The notes beneath the pieces are model-generated. The model did not search any database, was not told the origin of the DNA, and worked only from the letters and a program-made list of their open reading frames with translations. The position numbers and the translations under genes are program-made. Below are positions 29,207 to 34,593 of a stretch of DNA of 57,990 nt, piece after piece; within the stretch, counting starts at the first letter, position 1; the number at the start of each line of letters is the position of its first letter. Source of the DNA: Dehalococcoidia bacterium (GTDB lineage: Bacteria > Chloroflexota > Dehalococcoidia > Tepidiformales > Tepidiformaceae); NCBI GenBank assembly GCA_020432045.1, contig JAGQHB010000084.1, forward strand, positions 1-57,990, given 5' to 3'.

Positions 29207-29635
29207 TCACGGCCCGTCCCAGTCCCGCGGCATCAGCCGGAACGGTCCGCCCTGCGCCGGCCGGAGGAGATCGAAATGCCGGTAGTCCAGCGTGAGGATA
29301 TCCAGAGTCCGAAATCGCTCCGCGAGGACGCCGAGGGAAGCGTCTGCCAGCCCGATCGCCTGGTCGGGGTAACGTGTCATTACCGCGACGGCGGCGAGGA
29401 TGTCGTCCCTTCCAAAGGGTGCGAGTTGGTACGGCGGACTCGCGAAGGATGTCAGCATCCGCAGGGAGGCGCGGGTGCCTAACCTTTCGTGGACCATGTA
29501 GTCGAGTTCGGCGACCACGAATGGTGAGACCGCGAATTCTGCTTTGCTTCGCCGTACGTACGCAGCGATGTCCGCATGGTGTCGATCCTGGCTAGTGAAG
29601 AGCGCCAGCAACCCACTTGTGTCGGCGATCAGCAC
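29207..29635 (-). CDS. PIN-domain toxin (VapC type)
   Basis: 142 residues. MLIADTSGLLALF supplies the first catalytic Asp (D5), VVAELDYMV the Glu, and AIGLADASLGVLAERFRTLDILTLDYRHFDLLRP the last acidic pair, the four-residue metal site of PIN ribonucleases. GTG start lies one base after the antitoxin stop, so the two are translated together. It should be held inactive by the RHH antitoxin encoded upstream and cleave RNA when freed. Confidence 0.9.
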   Translation of the reverse strand: MLIADTSGLLALFTSQDRHHADIAAYVRRSKAEFAVSPFVVAELDYMVHERLGTRASLRMLTSFASPPYQLAPFGRDDILAAVAVMTRYPDQAIGLADASLGVLAERFRTLDILTLDYRHFDLLRPAQGGPFRLMPRDWDGP

Positions 29636-29636
29636 G

Positions 29637-29873
29637 TCAACGCTCGCCGAACCCCGTAAGGAATTCGTCTACACGCTCAGAGAAGTCGGCCTCTCCCTCC
29701 CACAAGGGGAACGCCGGGAGCGGGTGCTTCCGGTCTTCGCCAGAACCCACGTCCCGTGCCACGGCCTCACGGATCACCTCGGCCTCCGAGCATCGTCGCT
29801 CTTTCGCCGCCCTCTCGACGGCCGCTTTCAACTCCGTGGTCAGGTAGATCGTCGTCTTCACCTTCATGGCCAT
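29637..29873 (-). CDS. Ribbon-helix-helix antitoxin (VapB type)
   Basis: 78 residues from ATG 29873 (MAMKVKTTIYL); ATG 29867 and GTG 29888 are alternatives. KTTIYLTTELKAAVERAAKERRCSEAEVIREAVARDV is a CopG/Arc-type ribbon-helix-helix DNA-binding domain, and the C-terminal segment (FSERVDEFLTGFGER) would wrap the toxin. It likely represses its own operon as a dimer. The gene lies only 25 nt after the ileS stop, so read-through from ileS is possible. Confidence 0.87.
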   Translation of the reverse strand: MAMKVKTTIYLTTELKAAVERAAKERRCSEAEVIREAVARDVGSGEDRKHPLPAFPLWEGEADFSERVDEFLTGFGER

Positions 29874-29898
29874 GATGTACGGTGCCACTTATGGCAGG

Positions 29899-33156
<3,258 letters not shown>

Positions 33157-33265
33157 TGCCAGCCTCCCGGTTGCATGGTTGCATCAGCGCTGGAGACAAC
33201 CGCAACCGATGCAGCTTCGTATCCAACAATGAGCATGTACGCACGAACCGGATCTGGCGCTCAAG

Positions 33266-33538
33266 AAAAAACGCCCATCCCCGGCTGTCCAGGGACGAGC
33301 GTGCGCGCCCGCGATACCACCCCGGTTCCCGCCGCAGCCGGCGAGCACTCAGTAGAGCGCGATCACGCCCCAGCCCCTGCTAACGGTGGGCATCCGTCCG
33401 GGTCTACTTGCGGAGCGCCAATCGCTCGCGTTCGGCCGGAGGCTCGGGAGGGATCTTCTCGTCCGTGCTGCCTGCCCCCTCACACCATCCGGGGCTCGCT
33501 GGTGGCACACGCCGACGGTACTCGTCTCCGTCATCGCC
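33266..33538 (-). promoter_or_regulatory. T-box riboswitch (Ile, AUC specifier) with terminator, controlling ileS
   Basis: On the minus strand the T-box GGGGTGGTATCGCG lies at 33323-33310. Its UGGU bulge would pair with the ACCA end of uncharged tRNA-Ile, which has discriminator A. It is followed by a 13-bp terminator (33301-33289 / 33284-33272, including G-U pairs) and six Ts (33271-33266). Upstream, stem I elements are visible: a GACGAG K-turn-like segment near 33526, AGCGAGCC and GGTG in the distal region, and GAGAAGATCCC with the isoleucine codon ATC at 33454-33452 as specifier. AAGTAGACCCGGACG follows as in other T-boxes. The 5' boundary is approximate. Confidence 0.93.
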
Positions 33539-33549
33539 GTTCCTTTCGA

Positions 33550-34593
33550 ATGAAACAGCCGTGTCGCTGGCCTGTCAATCTGCTCGGCTTTCTCGTCGTT
33601 GCCTGCACGTTCCTAATCGCCTGCGGGCCCGGAGAAGCCGGGCCTCGACCGCAACATGCGACGCCCGAAACTCCGACCACCGTCCCCGAATCACCCACGC
33701 CCCTCGCTACGCCCTCTCCGCCCGCGCCCACGGAATTCCGTGTCGCCTTCATCAACCTGTTCAGCCCTCTCGCGGCAGAAGCCGGCAACCCGGCCGCGGG
33801 CGAAACGTTCGAAGTGCGATTGCAACTGCTTGTCGAACAGCTTCGCAGCTTCGACCCGGACGTGGTCGGATTCAACGAAGCCTCGTGGACGGAAAAGTAC
33901 GGGAGTGCCACCACCTACCTCGCGCGGGAACTGAAGATGGAGCCCGTCTATGCTCGCGCCAATCCCTGGTTCGAAGGCCAAACACGCGAGCAGAGCGATG
34001 CCCTCGTCCGCGAAGCTGGCTTCGAAGAAGGCGAGCTGTTCCTCGTACGCAGCACGCGCTACACCGTGCTCCGCGCCGACGAGCCGTACGCATTAAAGCC
34101 GCTTTCGACGGAGAGCGGCGAACGCCGAATCGGACTTCACGCCGTCCTCAAAGGCCCGAAATCGCTCGGCGAAATCGACCTCTTCATCACCCACCTGACC
34201 GGCGGTGGCGAACGCGTCGTCCCCGCGCAGGCCGCCGACTTCGCCGGCTGGATCGCGGAAACGCGCGGCCGTGGCCCCAGCCTCGTTATGGTGGGCCAAA
34301 GCGACCCCGCTGTGCCCTCCTCCTACGAGGTCTTCCGTGCTATCGGCCTGCGAGATGTTTTCGGCGCCGGCGAGGGTATCGTCACCTGCTGCCGCGCGGC
34401 TGTCGTGGATGAACAGCCGCCGCTAACCGCGCGGACCGACTACCTCATGTACGACCGGTGGCAGGCTGGATCGGCCGAACTGTTCGGCGATCAGCCCCTC
34501 GAAAACCACGGCAGCCTGCTCTATCTGAGTGACCACAACGGCATCATGGCCATCTTTCCGATTCCCCCGGAGCGCGCGGGTGCTATTCCCTGA
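33550..34593 (+). CDS. Lipoprotein with endonuclease/exonuclease/phosphatase-like domain
   Basis: 347 residues from ATG 33550. A signal peptide ends in the lipobox LIAC (TFLIACGPG), followed by a Pro/Thr linker to about residue 60. The mature domain has FRVAFINLF, DPDVVGFNEASW (the metal-binding Glu of EEP enzymes), EIDLFITHLTGGGERVVPAQAADFAGWI, VMVGQSDPAVP (GD-x-N changed to GQSDP), TDYLMYDR and SLLYLSDHNGIM (SDH motif). It should be an outer-surface phosphodiesterase-like enzyme, though GQSD in place of GDxN may weaken activity. A very long open frame reaching upstream through ileS on this strand is antisense noise. Confidence 0.83.
   Translation: MKQPCRWPVNLLGFLVVACTFLIACGPGEAGPRPQHATPETPTTVPESPTPLATPSPPAPTEFRVAFINLFSPLAAEAGNPAAGETFEVRLQLLVEQLRSFDPDVVGFNEASWTEKYGSATTYLARELKMEPVYARANPWFEGQTREQSDALVREAGFEEGELFLVRSTRYTVLRADEPYALKPLSTESGERRIGLHAVLKGPKSLGEIDLFITHLTGGGERVVPAQAADFAGWIAETRGRGPSLVMVGQSDPAVPSSYEVFRAIGLRDVFGAGEGIVTCCRAAVVDEQPPLTARTDYLMYDRWQAGSAELFGDQPLENHGSLLYLSDHNGIMAIFPIPPERAGAIP

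Follow-up and report, generated by a model that had tools for sequence, protein, structure and literature searches.

The minus-strand element at about 33,543–33,266 of the window (the whole 57,990-nucleotide stretch of DNA that was analysed) is a complete class I T-box riboswitch, and adds one more example to a known kind. We consider it very probable (about 0.96) that this ileS leader is a class I transcriptional T-box specific for tRNA-Ile(GAU) and is switched by uncharged tRNA. An earlier note had proposed a tRNA-Ile T-box with a terminator in front of ileS at 33266-33538; every element that it named is present in that interval, and the true 5' end lies about 5 bases further upstream. The features, all on the minus strand, are as follows.

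33550–33578, minus strand: putative promoter, TTGACA (33578-33573), 17-base spacer, TTTCAT (33555-33550) (sequence, family conservation)
33443–33543, minus strand: stem I domain with distal double T-loop motif (AGCGAGC ... GGUG) and specifier loop (RF00230 alignment, RNAalifold)
33452–33454, minus strand: specifier codon AUC (Ile), pairing with anticodon GAU (RF00230 register)
33324–33442, minus strand: stem II with an AGUAGA S-turn-like sequence, stem IIA/B with F-box CCGUUA, and stem III (RF00230 alignment)
33291–33323, minus strand: antiterminator, GGGG-UGGUAUC-GCGGGCG ... CGCUCGU-CCCU (RF00230 alignment, fold, covariation)
33316–33319, minus strand: T-box bulge UGGU, complementary to the tRNA-Ile 3' end ACCA (sequence, tRNA-Ile(GAU) of relatives)
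33266–33302, minus strand: intrinsic terminator of 14 bp with a 4-base loop and U-tract (terminator scan, covariation)
29899–33156, minus strand: ileS, isoleucyl-tRNA synthetase, 1085 aa, ATG start, with a GGGAGG ribosome site upstream (ORF, Pfam)

The identity of the element was examined using the Rfam T-box model, the search that the earlier note had put forward as a check. When 33150–33650 was scanned with permissive Rfam settings, RF00230 was the sole match, a minus-strand T-box at 33543-33288. The alignment was full length (model positions 1-219 of 219) and scored 71.7 bits, with E values of 1.2e-15 in the 501-base search and 1.9e-15 genome-wide. At default thresholds the only Rfam hit in the window was a tRNA; the ileS T-box was missed because its score is below the RF00230 gathering cut-off of 93 bits. 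Taken alone, that result would wrongly suggest a window without a T-box, which the permissive scan corrected. Across the whole 3.48-Mb genome (115 contigs), an RF00230 search identified three T-boxes including the ileS element, and no match to the leader was found in the phage records searched. The alignment revealed a long stem I with the distal double T-loop motif, stem II and stem IIA/B, which place the element in class I under the definitions of PMC10482949; stem I is full-length, and is not the short form lacking the double T-loop motif that marks classes III/IV. The AG-GAGC / GGTG columns of stem I were invariant in the alignment of relatives, and RNAalifold analysis with 24 relatives gave 17 stem I pairs, 7 of which had both sides changed yet were kept paired. 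Compared with shuffled sequence, the leader as a whole showed no extra folding stability (z -0.34); this is nothing unusual for RNA so rich in GC, and the comparison is uninformative.

For the ileS T-box, this analysis shows the sequence, the folds and their conservation. The two sequence stretches on which the earlier reading of the specifier and T-box relied were found on the minus strand: GAGAAGATCCC, with ATC at 33454-33452, and GGGGTGGTATCGCG at 33323-33310. Analysis with the terminator scan identified one terminator compared with 0.3 expected, a hairpin at 33302-33271 with 14 pairs followed by TTTTTC. This is the hairpin previously described as a 13-bp terminator with six Ts; the count differs by the outer A-U pair, which had been taken as part of the tract. 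The alternative antiterminator fold, which the earlier note had asked to see, exists: the antiterminator folded alone has an energy of -13.6 kcal/mol, and the best hairpin over the terminator region, with four extra outer pairs included, reaches -29.7 kcal/mol. The two structures have CGCUCGUCCCU (strand 33302-33291) in common, and are therefore mutually exclusive. Covariation was assessed in an alignment of 28 leaders (27 distinct rows). In the antiterminator 95% of cells were paired and in the terminator 92%, each structure had both-side changes in three pairs, and both exceeded shuffled and slid controls in paired cells and covariation score.

The gene behind the leader is intact. The ileS ORF matched tRNA-synt_1 (E 1.5e-114), Anticodon_1 and DUF5915 in Pfam, and begins 109 bases past the U-tract. 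Family relatives carry ileS at the corresponding place with about 60-78% identity, and the named relatives of the protein are Chloroflexota (53–54% identity for Dehalococcoidia, 77% for an unclassified Chloroflexi MAG), which makes Dehalococcoidia the probable class of the window's genome. Directly downstream, RHH/CopG-like and PIN-domain genes were identified by Pfam at 29207-29888 on the minus strand; these are likely a toxin-antitoxin pair. For the putative promoter, we compared the T-box-bearing ileS leaders of the family, scoring 28 and leaving out G029, which was anchored at the wrong place. All 28 had TTGAC[A/C] and, after it, a TTCACT/TGTAGT-like box located 15-17 bases upstream of the stem I anchor GACGGAG. 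A consensus promoter scan did not list the putative ileS promoter, since the scan requires the second base of the -10 box to be A, which is not the case in TTTCAT. A divergent plus-strand ORF without a Pfam match (33550-34593) has a candidate ATG inside this -10 box; if the ORF starts there, its leader would be antisense to the T-box.

To place the element in its family, 30 ileS loci with upstream DNA were compared, the window's own included. The T-box motif was present in 29 of these, all 29 with the specifier AUC, as first read, and UGGU. Only G013 (L118) had no T-box motif upstream of ileS; regulation has apparently been lost or replaced there. Within the family the expression platform is variable, because one genus has no clear U-tract and one relative has no terminator. 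In the genus g13 relatives (L125, L126, L127, L128, L130) the GC content of the hairpin is very high, and TTGTCGTG or CGTCGTG comes after it in place of a clear U-tract; termination at these T-boxes may not be canonical. In G008 (L140) the T-box has no terminator, lies about 60 bases before ileS and ends near the start codon, and pairing is possible between the strand behind the antiterminator and a GGTGGAC stretch adjoining the start codon; this T-box may act on translation.

The match between the bulge and the A discriminator of tRNA-Ile, also part of the original proposal, was examined in the tRNA genes of relatives. A pattern search located tRNA-Ile(GAU) in six relatives from the family and one from the class; the four genes read in their entirety, three from the family and one from the class, all end in A-CCA (A73), so that their ACCA end is complementary to the UGGU bulge. 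Neither a pattern search of the 115-contig draft of the window genome nor ARAGORN, run on 30 of its 41 tRNA loci, found tRNA-Ile(GAU), probably because of a gap in the assembly. The other two T-boxes of the genome provided a further comparison; their genes were named trpB-like and thrS from reading the proteins, without a family search. Upstream of the trpB-like gene, the T-box at L001:1501-1765 (G000:C11:30647-30911; 111.3 bits) has specifier UGG and bulge UGGC, and the genome's own tRNA-Trp has G73. Upstream of thrS, the T-box at L003:1501-1742 (G000:C55:16573-16814), with a terminator and U-tract, has specifier ACC and bulge UGGA, and the genome's own tRNA-Thr(CGU) has U73. Both elements match the discriminators of their tRNAs and thus support the code reading in the ileS element. 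A tRNA-Val gene is located just upstream of the thrS T-box.

Two positions in the ileS leader depart from expectation. In the window the bulge sequence is UGGUAUC, compared with UGGUACC in the other 28 family leaders, a U in the ACC part found in 1 of 29. Immediately after the specifier, 26 of 29 leaders have C, two have A and one has G, whereas the Rfam consensus has A. Such differences could mean that tRNA-Ile recognition in this lineage uses a specifier or bulge of slightly different geometry, a reading of the sequence that we regard as very unlikely. The bulge U might make tRNA sensing weaker, or it might be a sequencing error. If it did weaken antitermination the T-box would be decaying, leaving ileS mostly without tRNA control or poorly expressed. 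The uniqueness of the C-to-U change among the 29 family members fits such decay; however, the specifier, UGGU, terminator with U-tract and promoter of the window's element are all intact, and a single bulge base in a draft assembly may be an error, which makes decay very unlikely. We consider it more doubtful still that the ileS T-box controls translation, through occlusion of the ribosome-binding site, and not termination. Actinobacteria are known to have translational ileS T-boxes (PMC7778990, PMC10482949), and the terminator-less T-box of G008 described above may be another; in the window, however, the hairpin is followed by a U-tract and separated from the ATG by more than 100 bases, the GGGAGG ribosome site is outside it, and stem I has the long class I form.

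We therefore favor a class I T-box acting on transcription. For its switching, promoter and tRNA contacts the well-studied T-box family serves as guide, and by analogy leader RNA would be transcribed from the promoter at 33578-33550 and stem I would capture tRNA-Ile via the AUC specifier and elbow contacts. When this tRNA is uncharged, its ACCA end would pair with the UGGU bulge and stabilize the antiterminator (33323-33291), allowing ileS to be transcribed. With charged tRNA the ACCA end could not pair in this way; the 14-bp terminator (33302-33271), which is the more stable structure, would form instead and end transcription before ileS. The element indicates that ileS in this Chloroflexota genome is probably under tRNA-Ile feedback.

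Class I T-boxes of the RF00230 kind are found, for example, in the aminoacyl-tRNA synthetase leaders of Firmicutes. The window's element resembles the RF00230 T-box leader from the full stem I to the antiterminator, followed by a terminator; it differs in scoring under the gathering cut-off, in the C in place of A after the specifier, and in AUC for ACC in the bulge. RF00230 matches (E 0.001 or better) were identified in 58 of 61 genomes (own, family and class), and in 28 of these 58 none was above the gathering cut-off, indicating that this cut-off misses many GC-rich T-boxes of the lineage. Within the same phylum, an ileS T-box together with trpE and trpB-like T-boxes was reported in 2008 for two Dehalococcoides genomes (Wels et al., PMC2494555). 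Because of that report and the 58 matching genomes, the ileS T-box is of an ordinary known kind; the suggestion that it helps map the spread of T-boxes is weak, and their known distribution is unchanged by it. The Dehalococcoides element shares its gene class (Ile tRNA ligase) with that of the window and is likewise accompanied by trp T-boxes; compared by description, the window genome adds a thrS T-box. The actinobacterial ileS T-boxes of classes III/IV (Nocardia, Actinomyces; PMC10482949) share the same tRNA and regulated gene. In contrast to their shorter stem I without the double T-loop, the window's element combines a long stem I with a transcription terminator.
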